Assembly (NCBI GenBank): GCA_027345185.1
Contig: DAHWIK010000008.1
Span: 1 to 34,639, forward strand
Origin: Microcaldota archaeon
Lineage (GTDB): Archaea > Micrarchaeota > Micrarchaeia > Micrarchaeales > CABMGC01
DNA: 34,639 nt
Direction of reading: 5' to 3'
Under the pieces are notes generated by a model. The model saw only the letters and a list, made by a program, of their open reading frames with translations, was not told where the DNA came from and searched no databases. A program made the translations under genes and the position numbers. Positions within the stretch are counted from its first letter, which is position 1; each line of letters begins with the position of its first letter. Of this stretch, positions 5,944 through 31,634 are shown piece by piece.

Positions 5944-6162
5944 ATGAAGACTATAATGATAAGTGACGATACGTACGAAAAGCTTTCGTCAATAAAGGGC
6001 AAGAGAAGTTTTACAATGCTGCTTTCAGACTTAGTGAATAGCCTGAAGCAAAAAAAGAACGAGGACATAATGAAATTCGCAGGAATAATGAATGCGTCCG
6101 AGGCTAAAGAGGTAGAAAAGATAGCAAAGAGGATAAGGCAGAATGCGAAGGCGGGGATATGA
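5944..6162 (+). CDS. vapB: VapB-type antitoxin (UPF0330/DUF217 family)
   Basis: A 72-residue protein. MKTIMISDDTYEKLSSIKG followed by KRSFTMLLSDLVNSLK is the hallmark N-terminal ribbon-helix-helix-like region of the archaeal DUF217 antitoxins; the C-terminal part would wrap and block the toxin. The upstream in-frame TTG at 5935 is rejected because it lies at the expected transcription start. The gene overlaps the toxin gene by four bases (ATGA), the usual arrangement for coupled translation. Antitoxins of this type normally repress their own promoter. Confidence 0.88.
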   Translation: MKTIMISDDTYEKLSSIKGKRSFTMLLSDLVNSLKQKKNEDIMKFAGIMNASEAKEVEKIAKRIRQNAKAGI

Positions 6163-6560
6163 AGTTGTTTTTAGATTCTTCGGCAATAATCGAGTTTCTG
6201 AAGGGGAACGATAAGGCAAGCGATGCAATAGCTGCAGCAGACGAACTGTATACTAGTTCAATATGCGCATATGAAGTTTTGGTAGGAGAAAAATTTGTAG
6301 AGTTGAAGGGAATGCGTTCTGCCTATCAGGCCACGCTCAAATTTTTTGATTCTGTTTTAACCTTGCAATTTACTTATGCTGACTCGGTAGGAGCCTCTAA
6401 AATAGCTGCTGAATTGATGTTGAGCGGGAAGAAAGTGAATGATTTTGATGTGCTTTTGGCTTCACAGGCGCTTGCTAATGGTGCAACCATATTGACAAAG
6501 GATTCCAGGCATTTTGAAGTGATAAAGGATAGTACAGGCCTGTCAGTAGAAGCACTATGA
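6159..6560 (+). CDS. vapC: VapC toxin, PIN-domain ribonuclease
   Basis: A 133-residue PIN domain with the acidic metal-binding set in place: D6 (FLDSSA), E39 (CAYEVLVGE), D95/D97 (NDFDVLLAS) and D115 (TKDSRHF). VapC toxins cut specific RNAs, often tRNA or the rRNA sarcin-ricin loop, when not held by VapB. The overlap with vapB and the complete active site indicate a functional pair. It ends four bases before the convergent nreA stop. Confidence 0.92.
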   Translation: MKLFLDSSAIIEFLKGNDKASDAIAAADELYTSSICAYEVLVGEKFVELKGMRSAYQATLKFFDSVLTLQFTYADSVGASKIAAELMLSGKKVNDFDVLLASQALANGATILTKDSRHFEVIKDSTGLSVEAL

Positions 6561-6564
6561 ATTA

Positions 6565-7770: not shown

Positions 7771-7863
7771 CACGACACCTAGAAATATATATCCAAAAGA
7801 AAGTTTATTTACTGTGATTGCATCGCCATTAAACCTAGGTATAAACTTGTCAAAAAGGACGGG

Positions 7864-8274
7864 ATGACAGCGATAATAATAAACAGGAATAAGATCCTCC
7901 TGCTGAAGAGAAGGAATGTTCCTATAATAACTAATCCAGGAATCTGGTCCTTCCTGTCAGGCGCAAGGGACGTAAATGAAAGGTACATAGAGACTGCTTA
8001 CAGGGAGATAAGGGAGGAATCCGGAATAGATAGGCGCTCATTGAACCTGCTTTTCAAGGAAAGGATGTTGATTGCAGATAGGAAAAGGGGGATAATGTGG
8101 CTTAATTGGGTATTCATATTCAGGTCTAATACAGGAATAGTAAGGCTGGACTATGAGAACAGCAGATACAGGTGGGCGACAATTGGCCAGATAGAAAAGG
8201 AGATAAACTATACGAACATATTTATTAACAACAAGGAACTTGTAAAAAGGATACGGGGTTATGTTTACGGATAA
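7864..8274 (+). CDS. Nudix hydrolase
   Basis: A 136-residue protein with a perfect Nudix box, G-x5-E-x7-REUxEExGU: from G in GARDVNE to REIREESGI (roughly residues 37-59). Nudix enzymes hydrolyse nucleoside diphosphates linked to another group, using Mg bound by the box glutamates. The N-terminal MTAIIINRNKILLLKR is the family's first strand. The specific substrate cannot be predicted; 8-oxo-dGTP-type sanitation or NDP-sugar hydrolysis are both possible. It overlaps the start of the M24 peptidase gene by 14 bases, so the two are co-translated. Confidence 0.92.
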   Translation: MTAIIINRNKILLLKRRNVPIITNPGIWSFLSGARDVNERYIETAYREIREESGIDRRSLNLLFKERMLIADRKRGIMWLNWVFIFRSNTGIVRLDYENSRYRWATIGQIEKEINYTNIFINNKELVKRIRGYVYG

Positions 8275-9364
8275 AAAGACGCTTAGCAATAGGATAAAGA
8301 ATGTGTTCAGGGCTGCTAAAGGCATCAGGAGCATACTAATAGTCAATACCGGCTCTGAAGACCCAAATTTCATCTACATGACGGACCTGATAGGCGGGCT
8401 GTTTGAAGGGAGCCTGCTCCTAGTAACGAATTCTGGGGTGACCCTGTTTACATCGCCGCTGGAATATGAACTTGCAAGGGAGCAGCTCAATAACGGGATA
8501 AGGATAGTAAATCTGAACAAGAAGGATAAACTTGAGATCCTAGTGAATGCGGTGAAGGGAAAGAAGGTCGGCATAAATGGCAACTTCATTCCGTACGAAA
8601 TGTACAGGCGCCTGAAGAAGAGGCTTAAAGTCAAGGAATTTGTGGACGTGTCGGAAGCATTTGAGAAGGCGAGGCAAGTCAAAGACAGCAATGAGATAAA
8701 AAGGATAAAGGACGCAAACATTATAACAAAGAGGGCAATAGCTGAAGTCCAGAGAGGACTGAAGGCAGGCATGACAGAAAAGCAGGCTGCATCCAGATTT
8801 GATTCCTTGATATTGAAGCTTGGCGCAGATGGTACATCGTTCCCTTCAATAGTATGCTTTGGACGTAATGCTGCGCTTCCGCACCACAGTCCTGACAAAA
8901 CTAAATTGAGATACGGGGATTTTGTGCTGATTGATGTTGGCGTAAAAATGGACAACTACTGCTCAGATGTCACGAGAACCATAATATTCGGGAAGGGAAG
9001 AGGCAGGATAAAGGACTACGGCAGGAAAGCAGAGATATTAAAGATTGTAAAGGATGCCCAGAGCTTGGCAATAAGATCTATAAAGGAAGGGCAGATAGGC
9101 GAAAACCCGCACCTGATAGCAGAGAAGCATATCAATTCAGCATGCAATGGCAGATACAAGGGAACATTCATACATTCGCTGGGCCATTCGATAGGGATAG
9201 AGGTTCATGATGGCTCTGGAAGATTCCTTACGCCAGGATCAAAGCTTGTGCTCAGGGCAGGAATGGTAACTTCAGTTGAACCTGGAATATATGTTCCGGG
9301 TTTTGGAGGTGCAAGGTTTGAGGACGACATAGTCGTGACAAAGAAGGGAGCAATCGTACTTTAA
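8261..9364 (+). CDS. pepQ: M24 metallopeptidase, Xaa-Pro dipeptidase-like
   Basis: A 367-residue protein with a creatinase-like N-terminal domain (about 1-135) and a pita-bread catalytic domain. All five metal ligands of the M24 family are present: D225 (LIDVG), D236 (CSDVTRT), H309 (SLGHSIG), E340 (VEPGIY) and E354 (RFEDD). The enzyme would cleave the bond before proline in peptides, helping recycle amino acids. The two-domain layout favours prolidase/aminopeptidase P over methionine aminopeptidase. It overlaps the Nudix gene, and the tRNA-Pro gene begins two bases after its stop codon. Confidence 0.9.
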   Translation: MFTDKKTLSNRIKNVFRAAKGIRSILIVNTGSEDPNFIYMTDLIGGLFEGSLLLVTNSGVTLFTSPLEYELAREQLNNGIRIVNLNKKDKLEILVNAVKGKKVGINGNFIPYEMYRRLKKRLKVKEFVDVSEAFEKARQVKDSNEIKRIKDANIITKRAIAEVQRGLKAGMTEKQAASRFDSLILKLGADGTSFPSIVCFGRNAALPHHSPDKTKLRYGDFVLIDVGVKMDNYCSDVTRTIIFGKGRGRIKDYGRKAEILKIVKDAQSLAIRSIKEGQIGENPHLIAEKHINSACNGRYKGTFIHSLGHSIGIEVHDGSGRFLTPGSKLVLRAGMVTSVEPGIYVPGFGGARFEDDIVVTKKGAIVL

Positions 9365-9365
9365 T

Positions 9366-9438
9366 GGGGAGTTAAGCTAGCTTGGTAGGCTACCACCTTC
9401 GGGAGGTGGAAACTCGAGTTCAAATCTCGGACTCCCCG
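9366..9438 (+). tRNA. tRNA-Pro (anticodon CGG)
   Basis: A full cloverleaf can be folded. Acceptor arm GGGGAGT (9366-9372) pairs with ACTCCCC (9431-9437). The anticodon stem CCACC/GGTGG encloses the loop TTCGGGA, giving anticodon CGG, which reads CCG proline codons. The T arm is TCGAG-TTCAAAT-CTCGG. The discriminator base is G (9438) and CCA is not encoded. There is no intron. It directly follows the pepQ stop and may be processed from the same transcript. Confidence 0.93.
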
Positions 9439-9562
9439 ACCTTCTTCCGGGGTTATATATAGAAGCCACAAATGTTTATCTGTCTGGCAGAGACCCTGCA
9501 CCAAATCGGTTGCACGTTAAGGTATTTAATTTGACAAGTTCCTATACCTGACTGGTAATAAA

Positions 9563-9625
9563 ATGAAAAAGCCCTCACACAAAAAGATAGATGAAGTGGC
9601 AGGGATTGTTGGTGTGTCAGGTTGA
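9563..9625 (+). CDS. Possible 20-residue leader peptide before the antiporter
   Basis: A short ORF (MKKPSHKKIDEV..., 20 residues) begins about 35 bases after a TATA-like GTATTTAAT and ends in TTGA, so its stop overlaps the candidate TTG start of the antiporter gene. The stop/start overlap is what suggests coupling. No other evidence supports expression; it may be chance. Confidence 0.25.
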   Translation: MKKPSHKKIDEVAGIVGVSG

Positions 9626-10875
9626 TTCTGGAATCTGTAGTGCCGATGTTAAATGTCGACATATTTTTGGCGGTCATAGCAATAATAATCATTATCGGTT
9701 ACATAAGCAAATTCATATTTAAGCTGACCAAGATACCCGAAGTTGTAATCCTGATGCTAATAGGCATATCCTTGGGGCATTTAGGCAATTTGCTTCCACA
9801 AACGTATATTGCTACGCTGAATTACGTTGCACCTCTATTTGGAACTATTGCCCTGATTACAATAATGTTCAACAGCAGCAAAAACATAAGATTCGGAGAC
9901 AGGGCATCTCCGGTAGGGATTGGACTCCTATTGGCAGTTGCAGATGTGCTGGTAGTCACAATAGTGATGGCTGTTTTCATGAAAGCAGTGTTCGATTGGC
10001 CGTTAATATATGGTGCTATACTTGGTGCCATACTTGGTGAAACGACAGCGATAGTAGTCCTGCCCCTGATCAACAATTTAGAAATAAACAAGGACGTCTA
10101 TAATATGGTCCTGACGGAGGCGACAGTTAATTCCGCCATCTCGATATTGATATTTTACCTTATGATTTCGTTCTTAAATGGCTCGGCATTTACGCTTTCT
10201 TCATATTCTTTCTATATTGTCTCCTCACTGAGCATCCCTATCGTTATCGGTGCGGCAATAGGCTTGATATGGTTATACATCACTAATACAGTAAAATGGG
10301 CAAACGGATATCTGCCGACTATAGCAATAGCATTACTACTTTACAGCGCTGTGTCTTCCCTGAATGGATCGGCAATAATATCAGTACTGGTATTTGCCAT
10401 TATACTTGGAAATTCTGGAGTGATAAATGAATATATATACAAACGCGAACCTCAAAGCAAAGAAGAAGATAATGGGTTAGAAGAGAACCTCGAGTTCTTA
10501 ATAAGGACATTTTTCTTTGTATTCATTGGAATTATAGCCGTTATTACAGTAACATACCTGGCATATGCTCTGTTAATAACCGCAGTACTCATCATATTAA
10601 GGTATATTGAAGTCATTCCTATAATAAGGAATGATAAAAAGGTGCGAGGCTTCGTGTCATCGCTTGTGCCGAGGGGACTAACTGTGGCAGTACTTTCAAC
10701 AATACTGTATTCATCAGTTGGCGGGACTTACCCCACCCAGATATTCGAGATCTCGTTCATGGTGATAATATTCACAAACATAATAGCAAGTGCACTGATA
10801 AGCAACTCGGTTAGAAAAATGGAAAAGTCGCAAGAAGAGCCCGTAAAGAGTGCCGAGAATGCCAGATATGCCTAG
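9622..10875 (+). CDS. Cation/proton antiporter (Na+/H+ exchanger family)
   Basis: Up to 417 residues with about 12 hydrophobic segments. The segment KIPEVVILMLIGISLGHL is the conserved first domain of CPA-type exchangers. LGAILGETTAIVVLPL and LTEATVNSAISI supply the buried acidic and asparagine residues (T-E-A-T-V-N) that fit the ion-binding site of the CPA1/CPA2 group. The C terminus is a short charged tail. It would exchange Na+ or K+ for H+ across the cell membrane for pH or salt balance. The start may be the TTG at 9622 or the ATG at 9646; the ATG leaves the first helix intact. Confidence 0.88.
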   Translation: MILESVVPMLNVDIFLAVIAIIIIIGYISKFIFKLTKIPEVVILMLIGISLGHLGNLLPQTYIATLNYVAPLFGTIALITIMFNSSKNIRFGDRASPVGIGLLLAVADVLVVTIVMAVFMKAVFDWPLIYGAILGAILGETTAIVVLPLINNLEINKDVYNMVLTEATVNSAISILIFYLMISFLNGSAFTLSSYSFYIVSSLSIPIVIGAAIGLIWLYITNTVKWANGYLPTIAIALLLYSAVSSLNGSAIISVLVFAIILGNSGVINEYIYKREPQSKEEDNGLEENLEFLIRTFFFVFIGIIAVITVTYLAYALLITAVLIILRYIEVIPIIRNDKKVRGFVSSLVPRGLTVAVLSTILYSSVGGTYPTQIFEISFMVIIFTNIIASALISNSVRKMEKSQEEPVKSAENARYA

Positions 10876-10913
10876 CTGCGGAACCTGAAGGGCATATGTA
10901 CTACCCCGCGTGC

Positions 10914-12092
10914 TCAGGATAGCCTGTCCCTGTAATCCTCGTATCCGAACCTTCTTACTATCGTTGTCCTGCCTGTCTTTTTGCTGTAAAGGGCTATGGA
11001 AGGGTGTTTGATGCCATTGAATGTGGTTGTCTTGACCATTGAGTAGTGGGCCATGTCAAGAAAGACCAGTCTGTCTGATGGCTTTAGCCTCCTTGAAAAT
11101 GAGTAGTCGCCTATCACATCGCCTGCCAGGCATGTGAGTCCGCCAAGCCTGTATGTGTATCTATGCTCTCCGGGCTTTCCTGCGCCGATTATGTTAGGTC
11201 TGTATGGCTGTGCAAGGACATCGGGCATGTGCGCCTCTGCTGATGTGTCCAGTATGGCTATGTCCATGCCATTGTGCACTATGTCCAGCACTGTTGACAC
11301 AAGCACACCTGCGTTCAGTGCCACAGCCTCTCCTGGCTCCAGATGAACCTGCACCCCATGCCTCTTCTTGAAATTGTTTATTGTCCTGACCAGCAGTTCA
11401 ACGTCGTAATCCCTCCTGGTTATGTGGTGCCCGCCGCCAAAATTAACCCATTTCATCTGCGGTATCTGCTTGGCGTAAAGCTTTTCGAAGGACTTGAGCA
11501 CTCTTACCAGCACGTCTGCATTTTGCTCGCACAGGGCATGGAAGTGAAGCCCGTCAAGCCCCGTAAGGTCAAGGCCTTCCAGATCCTTTGGGTGCACACC
11601 AAGCCTTGATCCTGAGAGCGTGGTGTTGTAAAGGTCTGTCTCTACCTCAGACCTTCCGGGGTTTACCCTTAGGCCGACCTCTATCCTCTTTCCGCTTCTG
11701 GCTATAATGCCCCTGTATTTTTTCCACTGTGCCACTGAATTGAATATTATCACGTCGGAATATTTTATCGCTTTCATCATGTCTTCGTCTGAGTACGCAA
11801 CAGCGAAAGTATGGACCTCCTTTCCGAACTTTTCGTATCCCAGTTGCGCCTCTATAGGCCCGCTTGCCGATATTCCATCAAGGTATCTGCTAGCCATCTG
11901 GAAAGTGCTGTGCATTGCGAACGCCTTGAGTGCGAGCAGCACCTTGGCGCCGGTGCGCTTCCTCACATCAGCCAATATCTCTAGATTTCTTTGGAGAATG
12001 TCTTCGCTTACAATGAAGCACGGGCTTTCGACTTCTCCAGTAACCTTTTCTGGAAAGTTCTTAAGTTCACCGAGGTAAAAATCCTTTGCCAT
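10914..12092 (-). CDS. nspC: Carboxynorspermidine/carboxyspermidine decarboxylase
   Basis: A 392-residue fold-type III PLP enzyme. K56 in LLALKAFA is the expected PLP lysine. FGGGHHITRRDYD, instead of the glycine loop of diaminopimelate decarboxylase, and LDTSAEAHMPDVL near the C-terminal active site are signatures of NspC. It removes CO2 from carboxynorspermidine or carboxyspermidine to give norspermidine or spermidine. It lies eight bases after the dehydrogenase that makes its substrate, so the two form one operon. Diaminopimelate decarboxylase was considered and is less likely. Confidence 0.9.
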   Translation of the reverse strand: MAKDFYLGELKNFPEKVTGEVESPCFIVSEDILQRNLEILADVRKRTGAKVLLALKAFAMHSTFQMASRYLDGISASGPIEAQLGYEKFGKEVHTFAVAYSDEDMMKAIKYSDVIIFNSVAQWKKYRGIIARSGKRIEVGLRVNPGRSEVETDLYNTTLSGSRLGVHPKDLEGLDLTGLDGLHFHALCEQNADVLVRVLKSFEKLYAKQIPQMKWVNFGGGHHITRRDYDVELLVRTINNFKKRHGVQVHLEPGEAVALNAGVLVSTVLDIVHNGMDIAILDTSAEAHMPDVLAQPYRPNIIGAGKPGEHRYTYRLGGLTCLAGDVIGDYSFSRRLKPSDRLVFLDMAHYSMVKTTTFNGIKHPSIALYSKKTGRTTIVRRFGYEDYRDRLS

Positions 12093-15910: not shown

Positions 15911-15925
15911 AAAGCCGTTGCAAAC
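15911..15925 (+). repeat. Left 15-bp direct repeat bordering the island
   Basis: AAAGCCGTTGCAAAC occurs here and again at 22434-22448 in the same orientation. The inner seven bases TTGCAAA (15918-15924) lie immediately outside the terminal inverted repeat on both sides, as a target duplication would. Locally, AAAGCCG-TTGCAAA-CGGCTTT is also a 7-bp stem hairpin just after the asd stop. Confidence 0.7.
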
Positions 15926-15943
15926 GGCTTTGCTAATAAAGTC
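15925..15943 (+). repeat. Left terminal inverted repeat
   Basis: CGGCTTTGCTAATAAAGTC matches the reverse complement of 22422-22440 at 18 of 19 positions. Its first 16 bases without the leading C are also followed by the same motif family as the inner array: GGCTTTGCTAATAAA is found exactly, inverted, at 22067-22081. Confidence 0.75.
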
Positions 15944-15983
15944 CATCCTGCTCCCAAAGTGACATTTATGCTCCAAAAGTCCC
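15931..15983 (+). repeat. Left subterminal motif array
   Basis: Three same-direction copies of a degenerate motif: TGCTAATAAAGTCC (15931), TGCTCCCAAAGTGAC (15949) and TGCTCCAAAAGTCCC (15969). The last two are spaced exactly 20 bases, as in the right-hand arrays. This is the pattern expected of transposase binding sites. Confidence 0.6.
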
Positions 15984-16033
15984 TTTCTTGGGTTTCTTCT
16001 CGCCAGTTTTGCAGAATGAGTTTGCCTTGTGGC

Positions 16034-16048
16034 AGAATATATTTTAAT
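16034..16048 (+). promoter_or_regulatory. Promoter element reading into the island, left
   Basis: AGAATATATTTTAAT includes a TATA box for the gene at 16133, with a leader of about 60 bases. The identical 15 bases occur inverted at 22330-22344, also pointing inward, at a similar distance from the border. Confidence 0.55.
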
Positions 16049-16132
16049 CCTATGCAAACAATGAGTATCAGAGAATTTAGGTGTTCATGAGATGGGTATC
16101 GTCGGTCTGACTTTAAGTGGGGCGAGTAAATA

Positions 16133-18142
16133 ATGAAAGCCGATTCGCCTAACACAGTCATTTCAATACCAGAAGGGTATATATCCGACTACATTGATGG
16201 CACTTTCAGAAAAGATATACCAGAAGAATATGTCCGACAAAATATTGAAAAACGTTTAGTTAATGAACATAAATACTTACCAGAACAAATTGCAGTAGAA
16301 TTCAAGATTAAGCAGGGGTCAAAAAGTAAGCGTATTGATTTAGCTATTTTTCCAGATAATCTTGACAAGAAACAGGAGAATATTCAGATAATCATCGAAT
16401 GCAAGCGTGAAAATGTTGAACCTTCTAATCGTGAAGACGGAATTGAACAACTTAAAAGTTATATGGCGGCCTCACTTAATTGCGAATGGGGAATGTGGAC
16501 AAACGGGAAAAGCAAATTTGTTTATCGTAAAATAAAGGATTCTAAAGGCAGAATTACTTTTGAAGAACCTAATGACATACCTTCAAAAGGCAGAGATATT
16601 TCAGAGATCGATCGCCCAACTCGTGATTCTCTTAAACTTGCAACTGAGGACAATTTCCTTTTTGCATTCAGAACGTGCCACGACCATATTTTTGTTAATG
16701 ATGGAATGCAAAAGCAACCTGCTTTCTTTGAGTTGCTTAAGGTTATTTTCTGTAAAATTACAGATGAACGTAATATACCTCAACCATTAGAATTTTATGC
16801 AAGTAGCGAGGAAAAATCCTCAAACGATGGAAGGCTGACCGTGCAAAAGCGTATAAGTAAAATCTTTGACAAAGTTAAAAGTCGTTACCCCACCATCTTT
16901 GACAAAAACGACGAGATAAAACTCAAACCAATTAGTCTTGCGTATATAGTTAGTGAACTGCAAAAGTATAGCTTCTTAGATACTGTGATAGACGTAAAAG
17001 GCAAAGCATATGAAGAAATTGTTGGAGCAAATTTGCGTGGAGATCGTGGAGAGTTCTTCACACCAAGAAATGTTCAGCGTATGCTAATTAAAATGCTAAA
17101 TATAACGCTGGATGAAAAAGTACTTGACCCTGCCTGCGGAACTGGAGGTTTTCTCGTAATTTCCATGAATGACGTTATAAAACGTCTAAAGGAGGAGATG
17201 GTTCGCACAACGCATAAAAAAGAAAGCGAATGGAACGATTCATTACGTGAACGCTTAAGAGAAAGTATTAAGGAGAAGGCATCACAAAACTTTTTTGGTT
17301 TCGACATTAATCCAGACCTTGTAAAAGCAACTAAAATGAACATGGTAATGAACAATGATGGTAGTGGAAATATATTGCGTAATGATTCGTTACAACATCC
17401 TCACGAAATGCCAGAAGAAGTTAAAGAGTTCTTATCTAAGGTTTTTGAGTTAGATAAAGACCAAATACGCCAGCCTTCAGATTTAGCCCTATTTGATGTT
17501 GTAGTAACTAACCCACCATTTGGAACTAAATTGCCAGTAAAGGATCAAAATGTTCTTGAACAATATGACCTTGGTCATGTTTGGAAAAAGGAAGAAGGTA
17601 CAAACTACTATCAAACTGAAAAGATATGCAGCTCACGTGCTCCAGAAGTTTTGTTTATTGAGCGTTGTTATCAATTCTTAAAACCTGGTGGTAGGCTTGG
17701 GATTGTCTTACCTAATGCACTACTTGGTGCACCAGGACTCGAATATGCCTGTATTCGTGAATGGATTTTGCAAAAGTTTAACCTTATAGCCAGTATTCAA
17801 TTAAATCCCGATACCTTCCAACCACATAATGGTACACAAACGTCTGTCTTGATTTTACAAAAGAAAACATCGAAGGAATTGCAACAAGGCAATCGTAATT
17901 ATCAAGTATTTTTTGCCATAGCGGATAAAGTTGGACATGATAAACGTGGAAATGAGCTTTGGAAAAGAGATAAAGAAGGAAACGAAATTCTTGTACCAGA
18001 TGAATATATACCTGAGCTTGAAATTAATGCAAAAAATATACCTGCAATACAAATGCCCAAGAAAAGAGTGCGGGATGACCAAACTATGCCAATCGCCGAA
18101 ATTTTCTTGAACTGGAAAAAGAAAGAGGGCTTAGGATGGTGA
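16133..18142 (+). CDS. Restriction-modification protein: nuclease domain fused to N6-adenine methylase
   Basis: A 669-residue protein. Residues about 30-150 form an HSDR_N-like PD-(D/E)xK domain with D69 (KRIDLAIFP) and E89-C90-K91 (IIIECKREN). A HsdM-like helical region follows, then the methylase with DPACGTGGF (SAM-binding motif I) from residue 332 and NPPFG (catalytic motif IV) from residue 460. It methylates adenine in a target read by the specificity subunit at 18136, whose gene overlaps this one by seven bases. No HsdR motor is present, so a BcgI-like type IIB/IIG enzyme is more likely than a full type I system; a protection-only methylase is the alternative. CGT/CGA/CGC arginine codons are common here, unlike the flanking AGG/AGA-rich genes, suggesting transfer. 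Confidence 0.85.
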   Translation: MKADSPNTVISIPEGYISDYIDGTFRKDIPEEYVRQNIEKRLVNEHKYLPEQIAVEFKIKQGSKSKRIDLAIFPDNLDKKQENIQIIIECKRENVEPSNREDGIEQLKSYMAASLNCEWGMWTNGKSKFVYRKIKDSKGRITFEEPNDIPSKGRDISEIDRPTRDSLKLATEDNFLFAFRTCHDHIFVNDGMQKQPAFFELLKVIFCKITDERNIPQPLEFYASSEEKSSNDGRLTVQKRISKIFDKVKSRYPTIFDKNDEIKLKPISLAYIVSELQKYSFLDTVIDVKGKAYEEIVGANLRGDRGEFFTPRNVQRMLIKMLNITLDEKVLDPACGTGGFLVISMNDVIKRLKEEMVRTTHKKESEWNDSLRERLRESIKEKASQNFFGFDINPDLVKATKMNMVMNNDGSGNILRNDSLQHPHEMPEEVKEFLSKVFELDKDQIRQPSDLALFDVVVTNPPFGTKLPVKDQNVLEQYDLGHVWKKEEGTNYYQTEKICSSRAPEVLFIERCYQFLKPGGRLGIVLPNALLGAPGLEYACIREWILQKFNLIASIQLNPDTFQPHNGTQTSVLILQKKTSKELQQGNRNYQVFFAIADKVGHDKRGNELWKRDKEGNEILVPDEYIPELEINAKNIPAIQMPKKRVRDDQTMPIAEIFLNWKKKEGLGW

Positions 18143-19593
18143 AACAAGAAAAAGTGGATCTACAAGAGCAAATTCAGATTGCTTCGCAAGAAGAAATCAA
18201 ATGGACAAGTACCCAGCTTTCCGAGATTCTCCAACGAAATGAACGCTTTGATGCCGCATACTTTAATGCTGAAGGAAAAGTTGCACGAAGACTTATAGAA
18301 AACTGCACTTTTGACAAATTATATTTAAATTCTGAAAATGGGTTTGCCAAAGTATGGCATCGTCCTCGGTTTAGAAGAATCTTTATTGATAATGGAATCC
18401 CAATATATACTTCGTCTCAAATTCTCGAATTCAATCCAAAGACGGATAAATATGTATCAAATAAGACGGATACGGATTTAACTCCTCTCTATCTACAAGA
18501 AGGTCAAATTGTAATGACTTGCTCTGGTAGCGTGGGATATACAAGCCTCGTTACTCAAACGTTAAATGGACGATTATTTTCTCACGATTTACTTAGAATA
18601 GAACCATACCAAAAGTCAAATGTTGGCTATATTTACGCATTTCTAAAGTCAAGAATTGGACAGATTTTAGTAACGACAAATAATTATGGTTCAGTAGTAA
18701 CGCATTTAGAACCAGAGCACCTTTCGTCACTCTCAATTCCAAATCCATCAGATAAATTTAAACTCGCAATCAATTCAAAGATAATGAAAGCTTTTGAATT
18801 ACGAGATAATGCTAATACTCTAATTGCAAATGCAGATAAAATTTTGAGTTCTGCATTAAATCTCATTCCACTCAATGAGCTTAAACCAAAATATTTCGTA
18901 CCTGATGAGATTCGTAATTTTGAAGTTAAAACATCAGATTTAGATTTAAGATTCGAAGCCAACTATCATACACCATTGCTTGATGAAATAGACGAACGAC
19001 TTAAAAATAGCAATGTAGACTTAACAACTGTTGGAGATAAGAGGGTCAGCAAAGATGTAATTTTACCAGGCAGATTTAAACGAATTTATGTAGAAACAGA
19101 ATATGGCGTTCCGTTTCTCGGTGGTAGAGATATTACGCAATTTGATCCACCAGAACTTGATTATCTTTCCCTTAAGGGGCATGCAAAAAGAATAGCTAAA
19201 GAACTGACACTTTCTCAAAATATGTTGTTAATCACTTGTAGTGGCACTATTGGAAACACTTTACTCGTACCTAAATATCTGGAAGGTTGGACAGCAAGTC
19301 AACATATTATACGAATTGTGCCGGCTGATTCATTCAATGCAGGGTATCTCTATGCTTTTCTTTCAAGTGATTACGGATATCAGTTAATTAAAAGAAATAC
19401 ATATGGGTCAGTTGTAGATGAAATTAACGATGACCAAGTTTCTAACATAACTATACCCTTATTAAAACCTGAAAAGATGGACGAGATTGGTAATTTTGTT
19501 TTGAAGGCTAATGAGTTACGTTCCGAAGCATGGTTCTTAGAGAAGGAAGCCATACGAGACGTTGAAAATTTGATAAAGGATAATCAAAAATAA
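18136..19593 (+). CDS. hsdS: Specificity subunit (HsdS-like) with two target-recognition domains
   Basis: A 485-residue protein in two halves. Each half has a target-recognition domain with the conserved core: ITMTCSGSVGY-like IVMTCSGSVGYTSLV near residue 125, and MLLITCSGTIGNTLLV near 360. Each ends in a helical spacer (KIMKAFELRDNANTLIANADKIL; FVLKANELRSEAWFLEKEA). The two domains read the two halves of a split DNA target. The halves differ, so the target is probably asymmetric. The gene overlaps the methylase gene (ATGGTGA) and shares its A/T-rich, CGN-arginine codon style. Confidence 0.9.
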   Translation: MVKQEKVDLQEQIQIASQEEIKWTSTQLSEILQRNERFDAAYFNAEGKVARRLIENCTFDKLYLNSENGFAKVWHRPRFRRIFIDNGIPIYTSSQILEFNPKTDKYVSNKTDTDLTPLYLQEGQIVMTCSGSVGYTSLVTQTLNGRLFSHDLLRIEPYQKSNVGYIYAFLKSRIGQILVTTNNYGSVVTHLEPEHLSSLSIPNPSDKFKLAINSKIMKAFELRDNANTLIANADKILSSALNLIPLNELKPKYFVPDEIRNFEVKTSDLDLRFEANYHTPLLDEIDERLKNSNVDLTTVGDKRVSKDVILPGRFKRIYVETEYGVPFLGGRDITQFDPPELDYLSLKGHAKRIAKELTLSQNMLLITCSGTIGNTLLVPKYLEGWTASQHIIRIVPADSFNAGYLYAFLSSDYGYQLIKRNTYGSVVDEINDDQVSNITIPLLKPEKMDEIGNFVLKANELRSEAWFLEKEAIRDVENLIKDNQK

Positions 19594-19597
19594 TGAG

Positions 19598-19768
19598 TTA
19601 AGCTTCTTCAAAGACTCTAATCATCACTTCTTTGCCTATTTCATCGGATAATTGCGGAGTCCTAATGGTTATCATGCCATATTTGTATTCCTTTATCTTA
19701 CCATCTGATAGCTTTTTGTGGTCTATCCCAGAGCTTACCTTTACCCTGAAAGTACCTATTTGCTTCAT
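19598..19768 (-). CDS. Small protein divergent from the transposase
   Basis: A 56-residue protein starting MKQIGTFRVKVSSGIDHKK, with alternating hydrophobic residues suggesting a beta-rich fold; the family is not recognised. It ends four bases after the hsdS stop, on the opposite strand. The gap to the divergent transposase holds three copies of a 15-bp motif, so it may be an insertion-sequence accessory or regulatory protein. The open frame continues upstream to 20023 but that part overlaps the transposase and its motif array. Confidence 0.5.
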   Translation of the reverse strand: MKQIGTFRVKVSSGIDHKKLSDGKIKEYKYGMITIRTPQLSDEIGKEVMIRVFEEA

Positions 19769-19780
19769 AAGTATCCACTT

Positions 19781-19875
19781 GTATTCTAATAAGAAAGGTA
19801 TATAAACCCCTCTCAATTCTAATAAGATAGCAGTAAGGTATATATATGTTGTCGTGTGTATTCTAATAAGAAAGT
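19781..19875. repeat. Three copies of an ATTCTAATAAGAAAG motif
   Basis: Near-identical copies begin at 19783 (ATTCTAATAAGAAAG), 19816 (ATTCTAATAAGATAG) and 19860 (ATTCTAATAAGAAAG), all on the plus strand, 33 and 44 bases apart. TATA-like GGTATATA follows the first two. They fill the gap between the divergent small gene and the transposase and look like operator or transposase-binding sites. Confidence 0.65.
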
Positions 19876-19881
19876 GTTTGT

Positions 19882-21095
19882 ATGAACGCAAGGAGAATAA
19901 AGGGAGAACAGCTCGCAAGGGCTGTCCAGATACAGAAGAAAGGTATGGACAAGTGGATAGTCCCAAGCCAAACAGGAAACGGAGAATACACAGTAAACAG
20001 GTCAGTGAGGATTTTAGATGCACCTGCCCTGACTACCAGAATAGGGGGCAAGCGTGCAAGCATATCTACGCCGTTGAGGTCAAGGTGCTAAAGTGGTTTG
20101 ACAATCAGGGCAATTCAGGCACGGAAGTAATAATAACCAAGCGTACGACCTACTCGCAGGACTGGACTAACTACACTAAAGCTCAAACGGATGAGGGCAG
20201 GCTCTTCCACGAGCTATTGAAAGACCTTGTTGAGAATGTTCCTGACGAGCCATACACCTTTGGCAGGCCCAAAGTTCCTTTGAAAACTGCTCTATTCTGT
20301 GCAATAGAGAAGGTTTACAGCATGAAGTCCAGCAGAAGGGCATATTCCCAATATCAGGAAGCGGAAGCCAAACAGCAGATAGGCAAGGCCCCGAACTACA
20401 ATATGATAAACAAGAGGCTAAATGATGTGAAGATAACGCCTGTTTTGCAGGAATTACTGCATATTACCGCCATGCCTCTCAAATCAATAGAGACAAAGTT
20501 CAGTCCTGACAGCACAGGATTCAGGACTACTCAATTCAGCGATTATTGCGAACAGAAACACGGAACGAAGAAACAGCATAAGTGGATAAAGTGCCATGCG
20601 ATAACTGGCAATACAACGAATATCGTAGTTAGTGCAATAATAACTGATGAGAACGGCGCAGATAGTCCCCAGTTTATTCCTCTTGTTCAAGACGTGGCTA
20701 ATATGGGCTTTGATATAAGCGAAGTAACTGCAGACAAGGGTTATAGCGCAATAGCGAACTACAATGCAGTTCAGGAAGTAGGCGGACAGGTATATATCCC
20801 ATTCAAGAGCAACGCTACTGGAACTGTGTATAGTGGCAATAAGGCAAGGTTATGGCGTAAGATGTTCCATTACTTCCAGCTAAACAACGATGAATTTATG
20901 GAGCATTATCATAACAGGAGCAACGTAGAGACCACCTTCCATGCAATAAAGGCAAAGTTAGGGGATTGCCTAAAGAGTAAGTGCTATGTAGCTCAAGCGA
21001 ATGAGACGCTGTGCAAGCTGATAGCATACAACATTACAGTCCTGATAAATTCAATGTATGAATTAGGTATAAAACCTGAGTTTATAAGCAATTAA
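19882..21095 (+). CDS. SWIM zinc-finger DDE transposase, split by a frameshift
   Basis: The protein lies in two frames. From ATG 19882 the first frame gives MNARRIKGEQLARAVQIQKK and WIVPSQTGNGEYTVN, a normal N terminus for this transposase type. Near 20000 the sequence must slip by -1 to continue as VSEDFRCTCPDYQNRGQACKH, a SWIM zinc finger (CxC...CxH). The catalytic domain follows, with D in DSTGFRTT, D in TADKGYSA and E in NRSNVETTFHAIK, giving a complete DDE triad, ending at 21095. The joint is either a programmed -1 frameshift, as in several insertion sequences, or a one-base deletion. No canonical slippery heptamer is seen (AGTAAAC). Terminal repeats specific to this insertion sequence were not found. 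Confidence 0.8.
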
Positions 21096-21248
21096 CCTGT
21101 TTGACGACGTTAAATAGAAAGCTTTAATAATCAGATTGACGTTATTTCCTATAACTTTTGATAACCTCAACGCATGGAAGAGTTATAAGTATTTATAAGC
21201 TTTATTATGTGTATAAAATTAGGCAACAATTGAGAACAGATGTGAGTT

Positions 21249-21479
21249 ATGGTAGGAGAGCAGATATACGAGATTCAGATAAAGCCATTCGCAGAACTAA
21301 GCGATACCGCACAGTCGGAAGTAGCACTAAAGTTAGAGAATCTGCCGAAGGCATTCAGATACAGGGGCTTTGCAAAGATTGTTTATGCAAAAGCATCTCC
21401 ACTTAGAGTAATAAGTGTAGATCCTATCGAAGGAAATATACTTGATTATTTTAATACTATAACAAAGTCAAAAGGCTAA
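21249..21479 (+). CDS. Unknown 76-residue protein, first of a pair
   Basis: Begins MVGEQIYEIQIKPFAELS; mixed alpha/beta, no membrane segment, family not recognised. A TATA-like GTATTTATAA lies near 21188-21198. It is followed after 27 bases by a second unknown gene in the same direction. The small-then-larger gene order inside a restriction-modification island resembles a toxin-antitoxin or defence pair, but no motif supports a specific activity. Confidence 0.6.
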   Translation: MVGEQIYEIQIKPFAELSDTAQSEVALKLENLPKAFRYRGFAKIVYAKASPLRVISVDPIEGNILDYFNTITKSKG

Positions 21480-21506
21480 TACCCTGCGACAGTAGAGAGG
21501 AATTTA

Positions 21507-22016
21507 TTGTCCGATTCTTATAATGTTGAGATACTTATTGATGGAGATGTGTTGGAAAATCTTCTCCTTAATGGAGAGGAACAAAAATTTCTTTTATATT
21601 GGATATATTCTAATAAAACAAAGGCAGTAGTTCCAAAAAAATCTTGGAAAGGATTTTATAAACAACGAAAAAAGAACTGTGGCGATAATAAAGAGGTTTT
21701 TGATTCAATTATAGCTTCTTTTAGAGGCATAGTAACACCATATAGAACAAAGTATGTAGATGAAACTGGTGCAGTAATACCAGACGATGAAGAGAATCCT
21801 GACGCCGATGATAAAGATGATTTTACAATGATAACTACCATAATAAACAGACATTATGCAACAGTGAAATATGTTATAGTGAAAGACCCTGCACCATATA
21901 GAACTCAAGAACCCAAAATAAAACCAGAAAGGATAACAACTCTTGAAGGATTTTACAAGATAAATGCTGTTGAAAATTACGAATCCTTTAAAAAATTTCA
22001 AGAAGTATTAGAATAA
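21507..22016 (+). CDS. Unknown 169-residue protein, second of a pair
   Basis: Starts at TTG 21507; no earlier ATG fits. The opening SYNVEILIDGDVLENLLL has an acidic residue after a hydrophobic strand, as in PIN-like nucleases, but the later acidic residues of a PIN domain cannot be matched with confidence. The middle holds a very acidic stretch (PDDEENPDADDKDDF, near residues 90-105). AGA dominates for arginine. The gene ends two bases before a motif array like those at the island ends. Function unknown. Confidence 0.6.
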   Translation: MSDSYNVEILIDGDVLENLLLNGEEQKFLLYWIYSNKTKAVVPKKSWKGFYKQRKKNCGDNKEVFDSIIASFRGIVTPYRTKYVDETGAVIPDDEENPDADDKDDFTMITTIINRHYATVKYVIVKDPAPYRTQEPKIKPERITTLEGFYKINAVENYESFKKFQEVLE

Positions 22017-22018
22017 TC

Positions 22019-22081
22019 TGCTAATAAATTGCTGTATATGCTAATAAATAGGATTAATTAGCAGGATTTATTAGCAAAGCC
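22019..22081. repeat. Inner motif array of the island
   Basis: TGCTAATAAATTGC (22019) and TGCTAATAAATAGG (22039) are direct copies 20 bases apart. Two inverted copies follow (22051-22063 and 22064-22076), ending in TTTATTAGCAAAGCC (22067-22081), an exact inverted match to the left border's GGCTTTGCTAATAAA. This looks like a second, inner right end, so the island may be composite or nested. Confidence 0.65.
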
Positions 22082-22096
22082 AGATAGAGCCAAATC

Positions 22097-22297
22097 TTAT
22101 TTTGTAGATTCAAGCTCATCTAAGCATTCTACTTTTAATATGGTAGAATTTGCAAGGTATCTTGGATTATTCTTTAATCCTATATCAGATGCTCTATTCC
22201 AAACATCTTCTACTGTTCTGTAATCTTCTGGTAAATTTACCACTATACTTGACTCTGGACTTGAGCCTCTTCTGAAATGTATTTTATATTTTGGCAT
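22097..22297 (-). CDS. Unknown 66-residue protein near the island's right end
   Basis: Starts MPKYKIHFRRGSSPESSIVV and reads as a small alpha/beta protein; no family recognised. It has its own promoter (22330-22344) about 25 bases before the expected transcript start. It lies between the inner array and the outer right border and points inward, mirroring the restriction-modification operon at the other end. Confidence 0.6.
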   Translation of the reverse strand: MPKYKIHFRRGSSPESSIVVNLPEDYRTVEDVWNRASDIGLKNNPRYLANSTILKVECLDELESTK

Positions 22298-22329
22298 AAA
22301 ATCATCAATAATAGAATTACAAAAGTGGT

Positions 22330-22344
22330 ATTAAAATATATTCT
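22330..22344 (-). promoter_or_regulatory. Promoter element reading into the island, right
   Basis: On the minus strand this reads AGAATATATTTTAAT, identical over 15 bases to 16034-16048. It serves the 66-residue gene at 22297. Confidence 0.55.
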
Positions 22345-22376
22345 ACAAACTTCTTCAGCTTATAAACCAATTAATT

Positions 22377-22421
22377 TGCTCCTAAAGTCCCGAAATTGCT
22401 CCTAAAGTAAGTTAAGGAGCA
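22377..22421. repeat. Right subterminal motif array
   Basis: TGCTCCTAAAGTCCC (22377) and TGCTCCTAAAGTAAG (22397) are 20 bases apart. An inverted partial copy, AAGGAGCA, follows at 22414-22421 directly before the right terminal repeat. Confidence 0.65.
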
Positions 22422-22440
22422 GACTTTAGTAGCAAAGCCG
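22422..22440 (-). repeat. Right terminal inverted repeat
   Basis: GACTTTAGTAGCAAAGCCG; its reverse complement matches 15925-15943 at 18 of 19 positions. It is followed immediately by TTGCAAA. Confidence 0.75.
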
Positions 22441-22448
22441 TTGCAAAC
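22434..22448 (+). repeat. Right 15-bp direct repeat bordering the island
   Basis: AAAGCCGTTGCAAAC, identical to 15911-15925. The part outside the terminal repeat, TTGCAAA (22441-22447), is the candidate target duplication. Confidence 0.7.
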
Positions 22449-22452
22449 AGAA

Positions 22453-22463
22453 TGTATAAATAT
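22453..22463 (+). promoter_or_regulatory. TATA box for the gene at 22500
   Basis: GTATAAATATA lies six bases beyond the island's right direct repeat. An in-frame ATG at 22452 falls in this box and is therefore not the start. Confidence 0.5.
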
Positions 22464-22470
22464 AGGGAAA

Positions 22471-22492
22471 CACCTCTTACTTTTGAGAGGTG
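22471..22492 (+). promoter_or_regulatory. Leader hairpin covering the ribosome binding site
   Basis: CACCTCT (22471-22477) pairs with AGAGGTG (22486-22492) around an 8-base loop. GAGGTGG (22487-22493) is the ribosome binding site for the ATG at 22500, so the hairpin would hide it. Control by RNA folding, temperature or a ligand is possible. Confidence 0.5.
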
Positions 22493-22499
22493 GAAATTT

Positions 22500-23153
22500 A
22501 TGCATGCGGTAAAACGCGGGCCTATAAAGTTGGCGAATATACCCGGATTGCCGAAAGAGCGCATGGATGAGCTCAATAGGTTCTTATTTGAAATATGGGG
22601 CATGCCTTTACTGACCCCCATGGCGCCACCAAAAGAGAACTGGAGAGTCTTTCATGATGAGGATCCTGTTAAAGCCCTTGAATCTGCAAGGCTTGCCCTT
22701 AATTATGCTGCTGGAGGAAGTTCTCTTGAGAATCTGAGCCGGCCATACAGGAATGCATTTAACGAAGCCACAAATGCTGCACATTTTGCTGAACCTGCAC
22801 GTATAAGAAGCGAAGCTACAAGGAATGCCCAGTATTTCGCCAGAATGGAAGGGGAATACTTTGCACGCTCTGCGGGAGAGGCAGTATCCAGGTTGGTTGG
22901 CAGCAATACCGAATTGATGGGGATGGTAATCTCGACTGCAGACCTGAAATATCCGAACGGTGGTAAGGAGGATGCAGCAAATGAAGCTGCGGAGAGAATT
23001 AGTGCACTCAGAATGGGATATGTGGTAGTTGGAAGTGTCGATGGAATATATTACCTGATCTGCATCGGAACTCCTCCATCATGGCAGTTCTTGGAAGATG
23101 GCAGGAGTGCATTAAGGAGGCTTTCAATAAATGATCGTGGGATTCGGACCTGA
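22500..23153 (+). CDS. Hypothetical protein, alanine-rich helical
   Basis: A 217-residue soluble protein from ATG 22500, chosen by its ribosome binding site. Residues about 55-130 are rich in Ala, Glu and Arg (EATNAAHFAEPARIRSEATR) and look like long helices. The C-terminal third (MGMVISTADLKYP; MGYVVVGSVDGIYYLICIG) looks alpha/beta. No family or catalytic motif is recognised. It is the first gene outside the island and converges on the metal transporter gene. Confidence 0.65.
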   Translation: MHAVKRGPIKLANIPGLPKERMDELNRFLFEIWGMPLLTPMAPPKENWRVFHDEDPVKALESARLALNYAAGGSSLENLSRPYRNAFNEATNAAHFAEPARIRSEATRNAQYFARMEGEYFARSAGEAVSRLVGSNTELMGMVISTADLKYPNGGKEDAANEAAERISALRMGYVVVGSVDGIYYLICIGTPPSWQFLEDGRSALRRLSINDRGIRT

Positions 23154-29069: not shown

Positions 29070-31634
29070 TTGGCATCATCACCAGACGCAAAACCGAAGA
29101 GCGATACAGTTAGTCCTAAAGCCAAGGAGATCTACAAGAAGGCAGGGACTCTGTTCGAGGAGAACAAGTTTGACGAGGCCATAGAAGCCTACGGCCAGGC
29201 GATAGCAGAGGATCCGAACTATGCAAGTGCGTATTTCAACAGGGCACTTGCCTATGCGATACTAAACAAATATGCAGATGCGACAAGGGACGCAGAAAAG
29301 GTACTTGACATAGAACCAGACAGCTACGACGCGCCATACGTGATGGGAATAATAGCGGAATACCAGAACGACTTCCAGGGAGCGAAGGAGTGGTACGAGA
29401 AGGCGTTGTCAAGGAACCCGAAATACGAACAGGCAAGGTCAAGGCTTGAGCAGCTGAAGAAGAAGTCTGAGAAGCACCCCGAGCTTCCAACAGGCAACAA
29501 GGAGAAAGGAGTAGTTGATGAGACAGTCGTGGAAGAGGGGCAGATTAAGAAAATTAGGTTCCACAAATCCACTATCACATTCAAGGACGTGGTGGGGATG
29601 GATAAGCAGAAGAAGGTAATCCACGACAACATAATACTCGCAATAAGGAAGCCTGACCTGCTCAAAGCATACGGAAAGAAGCTCGGCCTCGGCGTTATCT
29701 TTTATGGTCCTCCAGGCAACGGAAAATGCGTGGCTGCCGATACAAAGGTATTGCTACCAGATGGAAGATATGTGTCGATCAAAGAAGTTGTTGAGAAGAA
29801 GGAGCCCCAGATCCTAACTCTGACCCCAATGCATAAACTTGCTGTAAAGAATGTGACTGGGTGGTGGAAGCTTCCAGGCAAGCCTCTCCTGCGAATAACT
29901 ACTAAGAGAAACCGTATATTAGAGTGCACTCCTGAACATCCATTACTAATAGGGTCTGACTGGGTAGAGGCGTCCACGTTGAAGGAGGGAGATAGAATAG
30001 GCGTGCCTAGGCATATGCCTATCTTTGGGTCAGTTAACATGCGGGAATGCGAAGTTAAGCTCTTAGCATACTTTATAACTGAAGGAGGCCTTACACAGGG
30101 AAAGGCCTGCTTTACTAATTCAGACATTGAAGTTTTAGAGGATTTCCAGTCTGCAGTAAAACAGTTTGATTCAGTACTGCACATAAATGTGCAGTCGAAG
30201 GATGGAAGAGTCATGACAATGTACGTTAATGGACATATGACTGGAGGAAAGGAGAGGAACTCAATGCAGCTATTCCTGGACAAAAGTGAATTATCATTTA
30301 CAAATTCTTATGAAAGGGAGGTGCCAAAAGCAGTATTTACTTTGCCCAAACGCCTACTTGCGTTATTCTTAAATCGTCTATTCACTGGTGATGGCTGGTT
30401 CCAAGTAAATAGCAAACACAGTGGCATATATGGTACAAAGGAGATGAGAGCAATAGGATACGCAAGTAACTCTGAAAGGCTGGTTAGAGATATCCATCAT
30501 CTTCTCCTGAGATTTGGGATCTTGTCAAATATTTATCATATGGGCAAAGGAAATTGGGAGCTAATAGTTCATAGAAACAGGGATATCGACATCTTCATAG
30601 AAGAAATAGGTATGTTTGGAAAGAAGGCAGATAAATTAGTTAAGAAAAAGGACAGTTGGGGCAAGATAAAGAAACATGGAGGCAACAGAGTAGTTTATGA
30701 AGAAATAAAGAAAATAGAAACACTTCCTGCACCAGAGTACGTTTATGATCTTACAGTAGATGAAACCCATAATTTCATAGCGAATGACTTCTTCGTGCAC
30801 AACACCTATTTAGTAAACGCAATAGGAGGAGAAACAGGATCGAACGTAATCATTGCTGCAATCAACCAGATAGTGGACATGTATGCGGGAAACACCGAAA
30901 AGAACATGCACGCGATATTTGAGCAGGCAAGAAAAGCAACGCCCTGCATCATCTTCTTCGACGAGCTTGATGCTCTGGGAGTGAAAAGGGGAGGCGACGG
31001 AGGAGGCGGAGAGGGTCAGAGCTTCATGCGTATGGCAGTGAACCAGTTCCTTCAGGAGATGGACGGAGTAGAGAAGAATCCAGAGGGGATATTCGTAATA
31101 GGGGCTACCAACGCGCCGTGGGACATCGATCCTGCACTAAAGAGAAGCAAAAGATTCGGAGAGACAATCTACATGCCGCCTCCTGACTACAAGACAAGGA
31201 AAGGGGCATTCAAATATCACACCCGCAATATGCCTCTCGCGCACATAGACTACAGCAGGCTTGCGCGTGCCACAATGGGATTTTCTTCAGCAGACATTGA
31301 AGAGATATGCGACAAAGCCGCACTTATCCCTGCTGTTGAAGAGGACGCGGGAGGTAAGAGGAGAAAAGTAAGGATGGGCGACTTCCTCAAGATGATAAAG
31401 ACCCATGGGAACACTCTTGACGAATGGTATGGGATGGTCAAGAAGGATATAATAAGCAAGACGGAGACGCAGATAGTGGATGGAAAGAAACAGGTGACTG
31501 TAAAGGAGGGCAAGCTCGGCCCTGAGGAAAAGAACAAATACAAGGCGCTAATAAAGGACGTGAAGAGGAATTCAAACCCAGTCTACATATTCGTGAAGAA
31601 GCTTGTAAGATGGTTCTCTCTTTATATAATATAG
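29070..31634 (+). CDS. TPR-AAA+ ATPase interrupted by an intein
   Basis: An 854-residue precursor; removing the intein (220-578) leaves 495 residues. Residues about 18-120 are three TPR repeats (FDEAIEAYGQAIAEDPNYASAYFNRAL), a protein-docking module. The AAA domain begins FKDVVGMDKQKK. Walker A is GPPGNGK|T, split by the intein after K219. Walker B is IIFFDELDALG (D631, E632), and GATNAPWDIDPALKRSKRF gives sensor 1 and arginine-finger regions of the Vps4/p97/proteasomal ATPase group. A C-terminal extension of about 90 residues is rich in charge. Likely a remodelling ATPase for protein complexes; the partner is unknown. The start is TTG 29070. Confidence 0.9.
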   Translation: MASSPDAKPKSDTVSPKAKEIYKKAGTLFEENKFDEAIEAYGQAIAEDPNYASAYFNRALAYAILNKYADATRDAEKVLDIEPDSYDAPYVMGIIAEYQNDFQGAKEWYEKALSRNPKYEQARSRLEQLKKKSEKHPELPTGNKEKGVVDETVVEEGQIKKIRFHKSTITFKDVVGMDKQKKVIHDNIILAIRKPDLLKAYGKKLGLGVIFYGPPGNGKCVAADTKVLLPDGRYVSIKEVVEKKEPQILTLTPMHKLAVKNVTGWWKLPGKPLLRITTKRNRILECTPEHPLLIGSDWVEASTLKEGDRIGVPRHMPIFGSVNMRECEVKLLAYFITEGGLTQGKACFTNSDIEVLEDFQSAVKQFDSVLHINVQSKDGRVMTMYVNGHMTGGKERNSMQLFLDKSELSFTNSYEREVPKAVFTLPKRLLALFLNRLFTGDGWFQVNSKHSGIYGTKEMRAIGYASNSERLVRDIHHLLLRFGILSNIYHMGKGNWELIVHRNRDIDIFIEEIGMFGKKADKLVKKKDSWGKIKKHGGNRVVYEEIKKIETLPAPEYVYDLTVDETHNFIANDFFVHNTYLVNAIGGETGSNVIIAAINQIVDMYAGNTEKNMHAIFEQARKATPCIIFFDELDALGVKRGGDGGGGEGQSFMRMAVNQFLQEMDGVEKNPEGIFVIGATNAPWDIDPALKRSKRFGETIYMPPPDYKTRKGAFKYHTRNMPLAHIDYSRLARATMGFSSADIEEICDKAALIPAVEEDAGGKRRKVRMGDFLKMIKTHGNTLDEWYGMVKKDIISKTETQIVDGKKQVTVKEGKLGPEEKNKYKALIKDVKRNSNPVYIFVKKLVRWFSLYII
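29727..30803 (+). other. Intein with LAGLIDADG homing endonuclease in the Walker A loop
   Basis: 359 residues, from C (first intein residue) to HN (end), followed by T as the +1 nucleophile. Block A is CVAADTKVLLPDG; block B has the T-x-x-H (ECTPEHPLL); block F/G reads YVYDLTVDETHNFIANDFFVHN in two parts. The endonuclease core is shown by LLAYFITEGG and LNRLFTGDGW, the two LAGLIDADG-type helices. Splicing residues are all present, so it should splice. The insertion point, the P-loop of an ATPase, is a favoured conserved site. A/T content is slightly above the host gene. Confidence 0.93.

Follow-up and report, generated by a model that had tools for sequence, protein, structure and literature searches.

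A contig of 34,639 nucleotides from a Microcaldota archaeon (DAHWIK010000008.1 of GenBank assembly GCA_027345185.1; hereafter the window, meaning this whole stretch) carries an island that contains restriction-modification genes and a transposase gene. Comparison of this island with related loci makes it very probable that it represents one insertion of a cargo-carrying DDE transposon, positioned at a promoter and belonging to a large archaeal family related to IS903. This family is widespread and apparently undescribed. A preliminary description of the window had proposed a mobile unit with terminal repeats, a target duplication, subterminal arrays and defense cargo, belonging to no known family. 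Our results support the mobile unit; the lack of any known relative does not stand, as the catalytic domain, the terminal repeat and the duplication length relate the element to IS903, while most of its other features are new.

Borders of the element and its target duplication

The element spans positions 15926-22439 (6,514 bp), has inverted ends of the sequence GGCTTTGC... and is flanked by two copies of the 9-bp target duplication GTTGCAAAC, located at 15917-15925 and 22440-22448. The left terminal inverted repeat GGCTTTGCTAATAAAGTC was found at 15926-15943 on the forward strand, with a first repeated unit beginning at its position 6, and the right one, GGCTTTGCTACTAAAGTC, at 22422-22439 on the reverse strand. 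An inverted repeat CGGCTTTGCTAATAAAGTC had been reported at 15925-15943, with an 18/19 inverted match at 22422-22440, and both are present. This apparent repeat is one base too long because GTTGCAAAC is near-palindromic, its outer G and C mimicking part of the inverted repeat, and the true border lies one base inward.

The other repeats that had been reported were recovered as well. The 15-bp direct repeat AAAGCCGTTGCAAAC encloses the island at 15911-15925 and 22434-22448 and has no third copy in the window. Subterminal motifs with a 20-bp period occur at both ends: TGCTCCNAAAGT begins at 15949, 15969, 22377 and 22397 and nowhere else in the whole window. The units that contain it are TGCTCCCAAAGT (15949) and TGCTCCAAAAGT (15969) on the left (15949-15980, forward strand), which are direct and lie at positions 24 and 44 from the end, and two copies of TGCTCCTAAAGT on the right (22377-22408, forward strand), which lie at positions 36 and 56 from the right end and are inverted relative to its terminal repeat. 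Further inward, the TATA-like 15-mer AGAATATATTTTAAT is located upstream of the methyltransferase gene (16034-16048, forward strand), and an identical inverted copy is found near the right end (22330-22344, reverse strand). A chance origin of this repeat arrangement is excluded.

The length of the target duplication was assessed by counting exact direct repeats outside paired inverted GGCTTTG-like ends in the loci of relatives. In the first set, 175, 56, 10, 2, 0 and 32 repeats of 4, 5, 6, 7, 8 and 9 bp were counted and none of 10 bp or more, one of the 32 nine-bp cases being a bacterial IS903-type element (L150, 1,054 bp) that was included as a yardstick. A second set, partly overlapping the first, gave 109, 29, 7, 1, 1, 37 and 1 repeats of 4 to 10 bp, and a third gave 111, 27, 6, 5, 1, 32 and 1. 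Since the counts peak sharply at 9 bp only, the duplication is 9 bp long. The heptamer TTGCAAA that had been noted directly outside both ends is indeed there; the 7-bp duplication proposed from it was rejected.

The insertion is also evident from uninterrupted loci. In two congeneric genomes that lack the island (G005 and G007), asd (80% identical) adjoins a homologue of the gene at 22452, with some tens of bases between them, as expected of an empty site. The TATA box of the target promoter is kept in both, and a single GTTGCA-like stretch remains in G007. The nearest relative, the element of G001, matches the window element without a difference over 68 bp at the right end and is related to it at the left end, and the transposase genes of the two are 85% identical at the DNA level; the G001 element is 3.2 kb long and does not carry the MAD2/MAD5 genes described below. 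Taken together, the empty sites and this element show that insertion and cargo are both variable. No intact target duplication was found in L035, the nearest relative with the same right end. The target-side gene itself (22452-23153) has no Pfam or NCBIfam match, and its homologues in three congeners are 36-53% identical.

Two other origins of the island were considered. The perfect 15-bp direct repeat that flanks it would be in line with site-specific integration by a recombinase at AAAGCCGTTGCAAAC. This can practically be dismissed, as the element holds a DDE transposase gene and no recombinase gene, and the duplicated 9-mers of the relatives all differ in sequence and agree in length alone, which refutes integration at AAAGCCGTTGCAAAC. 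The island could also be a nested composite, in which two family members of differing end type fused and the outer ends now mobilize the whole. Inside the element there is indeed a full right end of a different unit type (22018-22081, reverse strand; terminal repeat GGCTTTGCTAATAAATCC, inverted units TATTAGCA at positions 36 and 56), an orphan for which neither a partner end nor a target duplication was found, and a comparable internal end is present in L037 (at 241). The outer ends and the transposase nevertheless belong together, as they recur jointly in the G001 element, and we consider a composite rather unlikely. A composite origin of the right-hand 1 kb is possible and would be compatible with a single insertion of the element as it now stands. 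The repeats are not common genome-wide motifs: the element's own genome (0.92 Mb, 49 contigs) holds, besides the two ends, only one degenerate inner copy of the end sequence, at 22064-22081 within the orphan end.

Insertion upstream of core promoters

The borders of 75 elements could be defined by exact 9-bp duplications, 48 of them in a discovery set and 27 unambiguous ones in a validation set assembled later from Methanothrix, Thermoplasmata, Woesearchaeota and their relatives. The transposase is encoded in 59 of the 301 genomes of the phylum and also in Methanothrix and other Methanosarcinales, Thermoplasmata, Diapherotrites, Aenigmatarchaeota, Altiarchaeota, Nanohaloarchaeota and Woesearchaeota, as well as in a few bacterial metagenome-assembled genomes (MAGs). 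The named relatives of the window are mostly Micrarchaeota MAGs, which makes its host a DPANN archaeon of this type. The elements measure ~1-10 kb (median 5.1 kb), and nearly all contain other genes. Recent movement is indicated by the elements of L046 and L108, which are 100% identical over 5.6 kb and reside in hosts of different families with different target duplications. In addition, one contig of a third genome, the MAG UBA446 (L194 1-4975), consists of exactly one 4,975-bp element that differs by one base from L108 7819-12793. Mis-binning could misplace such contigs, yet it would not create borders with different duplications. The L046 locus (2754-11503) comprises the L108 element plus ~3 kb of extra nested DNA and a short duplicated stretch.

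Insertions inside open reading frames (ORFs) of at least 120 aa were found in 8 of 39 cases, as compared to 28 expected (p 2e-11). The sequence next to the duplications was then scored for TATA boxes, defined as TTTAWATA or TATAWATA with at most one mismatch and looking outward from the duplication. In the discovery set, 29 of the 48 sites have a TATA box whose start lies exactly 6 bp from the duplication, against a background of 0.25 per offset (p ~5e-49), while offsets 5 and 7 account for 1 and 0 sites; counts at offsets 4 and 8 largely reflect the two-base self-overlap of TATATA. The 6 bp between the duplication and the TATA box read RAAANN, with 1.1-1.4 bits at the two strongest A's when sites are oriented by the TATA box alone, and we take this sequence to be the archaeal B recognition element (BRE). 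The opposite side of the duplication holds no information above 0.3 bit. Both signals recurred in the validation set: offset 6 carries a TATA box at 13 of the 27 sites (p ~3e-17 against a background of 0.31), and the BRE pattern came up again. Unpartnered ends display the same peak, which falls at offset 15 when counted from the end and comprises 9 of 40 cases as compared to a background of 0.8. A symmetric target palindrome in the first logo was rejected, as it arose from a mixture of both orientations and the oriented sites are one-sided. In the window, the target promoter lies at 22449-22462 on the forward strand and consists of the candidate BRE AGAATG (22449-22454) and the TATA box TATAAATA (22455-22462); the gene behind it probably starts at 22500.

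Several elements may occupy the same site in succession. In 11 cases among the 75 sites, the target duplication is directly adjoined on its outer side by a GGCTTTG-like end with no more than one mismatch, with a BRE-TATA-like sequence on the opposite side every time, and in L200 (110-5042) two identical elements form a perfect tandem with one shared 9-bp duplication. The AAAGCC just outside the left target duplication of the window (15911-15916) is probably the relic of an earlier element's end at the same promoter, of which 6-7 bp remain. Its sequence is suggestive of the 15-bp repeat being the 9-bp duplication joined to that end.

The strict position could have more than one cause. The transposase itself may read a TATA-like or AT-rich target without promoter-bound proteins, such that promoters are hit since they carry that sequence. 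TATA and BRE are sequence signals, DDE transposases often show target sequence preferences, and the 6-bp spacing is compatible with direct reading, too. However, the motif is one-sided, whereas strand-transfer complexes with two-fold symmetry usually show symmetric preferences, and it includes the BRE, which is read by TFB; moreover, two bacterial-borne elements with target duplications (L221 and L224) have no TATA box at that spacing, although the number is small (n = 2). Direct reading is therefore a serious contender that we place somewhat below even odds. In a survivorship scenario, insertion would be near-random and only copies upstream of a core promoter would survive in compact genomes, in agreement with the density of these genomes and the depletion of insertions in genes. 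Yet selection would permit many intergenic positions, cannot yield a spike at offset 6 with almost no sites at 5 or 7, and does not give repeated insertion at the same 9 bp, which renders this scenario highly improbable. Positioning by the core promoter, be it through its DNA or its bound proteins, is an inferred part of the favored interpretation.

End architecture, transposase and related systems

Probes for further units were derived from positions 6-13 of the terminal repeats, separately for each of the 48 discovery elements. Direct units were found at positions 24 (30/48) and 44 (26/48) of the end upstream of the transposase gene, and inverted units at positions 36 (29/48) and 56 (27/48) of the opposite end, while any other position was occupied in at most 3 elements. 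Each end thus has three units of this type in a fixed, asymmetric layout, 6/24/44 on the left and 6/36/56 on the right. The unit sequences vary among elements (TGCTCC, TGCTCAT, TGTATAA, TGCACG, TGTTTAT, TGTCCNT and others). Own probes gave 1.73 exact matches per element as compared to 0.12 with the probes of other elements, a value that was reached in 0 of 100,000 permutations. As judged from these matches, the units and the terminal repeat of one element vary in concert. By analogy with the binding of transposases to the inner portion of terminal repeats, the simplest reading is that all units are putative binding sites of the same transposase.

The transposase gene of the window (forward strand, ORF called at 19854-21095) starts at the ATG at 19882 according to the alignment with relatives. 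Its product matches Pfam DDE_Tnp_1 (3e-23, 83 bits) and SWIM (3e-5) and retains the catalytic D, D and E residues. As compared to the relatives, 1 nt is missing after position 20001, which places the first 40 residues out of frame; unless this frameshift is an assembly error, the copy would be unable to make a normal transposase and is probably immobile by its own means. The archaeal transposases share an N-terminal extension of ~90 residues with a SWIM zinc finger (conserved CxC...CKH). The structure predicted for the transposase of a relative (mean pLDDT 81) has the Tn5 transposase as its best fold match (E 6e-4), as expected for a DDE enzyme; a search of solved structures with the transposase profile gave nothing useful.

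Among known elements, IS903B has the ends GGCTTTGTTGAATAAATC and a 9-bp duplication (PMC10569121). The archaeal elements resemble IS903 (IS5 family) in their homologous DDE catalytic domain, the hidden Markov model of the family matching the IS903-type protein with 57 bits, and in having GGCTTTGTTG-type inverted ends with a 9-bp duplication, too. The window transposase reaches 117.8 bits and thereby misses the NCBIfam IS5_2 equivalog cut-off (140 bits). The IS903-type yardstick element is a compact, transposase-only insertion sequence of ~1.05 kb with a 307-aa transposase and has neither a SWIM domain nor cargo or subterminal arrays, whereas the archaeal elements reach from ~1 to 10 kb, mostly bear cargo and are positioned at promoters.

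Targeting of promoters has been described for the TnGBS, ISLre2 and ISKra4 group of prokaryotic Mutator-like elements (p-MULT 3 and 4), which insert 15-17 bp upstream of the -35 box of sigma-A promoters (PMC3942029). The archaeal family likewise inserts at a fixed distance upstream of promoters, but does so at BRE-TATA instead of bacterial sigma-A promoters, has a transposase of another superfamily and is not a member of p-MULT. No match to Mutator or IS256 was obtained, all Pfam and NCBIfam matches of the transposase being of the DDE_Tnp_1/IS5 type. While p-MULT 3 elements insert mostly in one orientation, the promoter is faced about equally by the left (23) and the right end (19) of the archaeal elements. 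A functional parallel to the promoter-guided mechanism considered here is offered by Ty3 and other TFIIIB-guided retrotransposons, which integrate at a fixed position beside a promoter complex of TBP and a TFIIB-family protein; these rely on eukaryotic retrotransposon integrases, target Pol III genes and share no common descent with the archaeal elements. Tn7-like transposons have several transposase-binding sites per end in an asymmetric arrangement, carry defense cargo, use a safe target and generate a 5-bp duplication. The archaeal elements are similar in their asymmetric ends with several putative binding sites, their defense cargo and their presumably safe target, but have a 9-bp instead of a 5-bp duplication; the window element has one transposase gene, and no TnsA/B/C-type genes were found among its ORFs.

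Cargo and significance of promoter-positioned insertion

Two cargo genes of the window element, both on the forward strand, encode a MAD2/HsdM-like N6-adenine methyltransferase of 669 aa with an N-terminal HSDR_N_2 nuclease-type domain (16133-18142; Pfam N6_Mtase 2e-34, HSDR_N_2 8e-26) and a MAD5/HsdS-like specificity subunit of 485 aa (18136-19593; NCBIfam MAD5 424 bits, cut-off 400; Pfam Methylase_S). N6_Mtase, HSDR_N_2 and Methylase_S are components of Type I-like or IIB-like restriction-modification systems, and the pair most likely constitutes such a system carried as cargo. Both proteins resemble their counterparts in MADS (methylation-associated defense system) over their full lengths; however, the methyltransferase (626 bits) stays below the NCBIfam MAD2 cut-off of 720, and the element carries two genes only of this multi-gene system. 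As for the remaining mad genes, PADLOC gave no match for any other ORF of the element; this search did not extend to the rest of the genome.

A 56-aa protein is encoded divergently from the transposase (19601-19768, reverse strand), has homologues in 8 of the 48 elements and is a possible regulator. In the space that separates it from the transposase gene, TTCTAATAAGA occurs three times (19784-19871); these copies are candidate operators, and the conserved small gene together with these repeats (19601-19871) raises the possibility of autoregulation of the transposase. ORFs of 76 aa (21249-21479, forward strand), 169 aa (21507-22016, forward strand) and 66 aa (22097-22297, reverse strand, downstream of the right inward TATA-like 15-mer) have no assigned function, and none of these three or the 56-aa protein gave a convincing match in Pfam, NCBIfam or PADLOC. 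Elsewhere in the window, an ORF of 854 aa at 29070-31634 encodes a TPR-AAA ATPase whose Walker A region (GNGK, then CVAADTKVLLPDG...HN) is apparently interrupted by an intein.

Across the family, a DNA methyltransferase gene (N6_N4, N6, D12 or C5 according to Pfam) was found in 18 of 31 first-set elements, or 17 of 30 when an identical pair is counted once, with some assignments resting on protein clusters. Further cargo includes MamI- and NgoPII-type restriction enzymes and HNH, Mrr, AIPR, DruA, HerA/NurA-like and MORC-like genes. Among the 25 commonest families listed for 125 ORFs around the same elements, no methyltransferase family was present.

Several observations weigh against the interpretation of the island as a promoter-positioned transposon of this family. 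The genome of the window element holds a single copy, and its transposase gene is frameshifted. All support consists of comparative sequence, mostly from MAGs. The archaeal TATA consensus applied is a general one, and ~40% of the discovery sites and half of the validation sites lack an offset-6 TATA box within one mismatch. Finally, the cargo statistics stem from one phylum and from elements that share ancestry, and the flank control comprises the 25 commonest families.

A mechanism can be proposed on this basis. The SWIM-bearing N-terminal part of the transposase may bind the units, and the bound transposase would form a multi-subunit complex that distinguishes the left from the right end. 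The core promoter would direct the strand-transfer complex, either via TBP-TFB bound to BRE-TATA or via that DNA itself. Insertion at this position would spare the BRE, the TATA box and the gene and thus be harmless. Since each insertion would leave the landing site intact, the next element could enter at the same 9 bp, on the promoter side of its predecessor, and such stacking at one promoter is a possible route to defense islands. A more specific version, to which we assign a chance only just short of even, is that an IS903-like archaeal lineage gained a SWIM zinc finger as well as ends with several sites, and that the promoter-bound TBP-TFB complex guides its insertion to the position exactly upstream of the BRE. 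In this version, archaeal defense islands would be built by copies with restriction-modification cargo that pile up at shared promoters, since the landing site outlasts every insertion.

In the open literature searched, we found no account of DNA transposons being positioned at a constant spacing to an archaeal BRE-TATA core promoter. The family would be the archaeal counterpart of the bacterial elements that target sigma-A promoters and of the TFIIIB-guided yeast retrotransposons. Its natural insertions would provide a set of markers for real archaeal promoters, and the units co-varying with the terminal repeats a ready data set on transposase DNA specificity. For the very small genomes of DPANN archaea, it would offer a concrete way for restriction-modification and other defense genes to spread and cluster.

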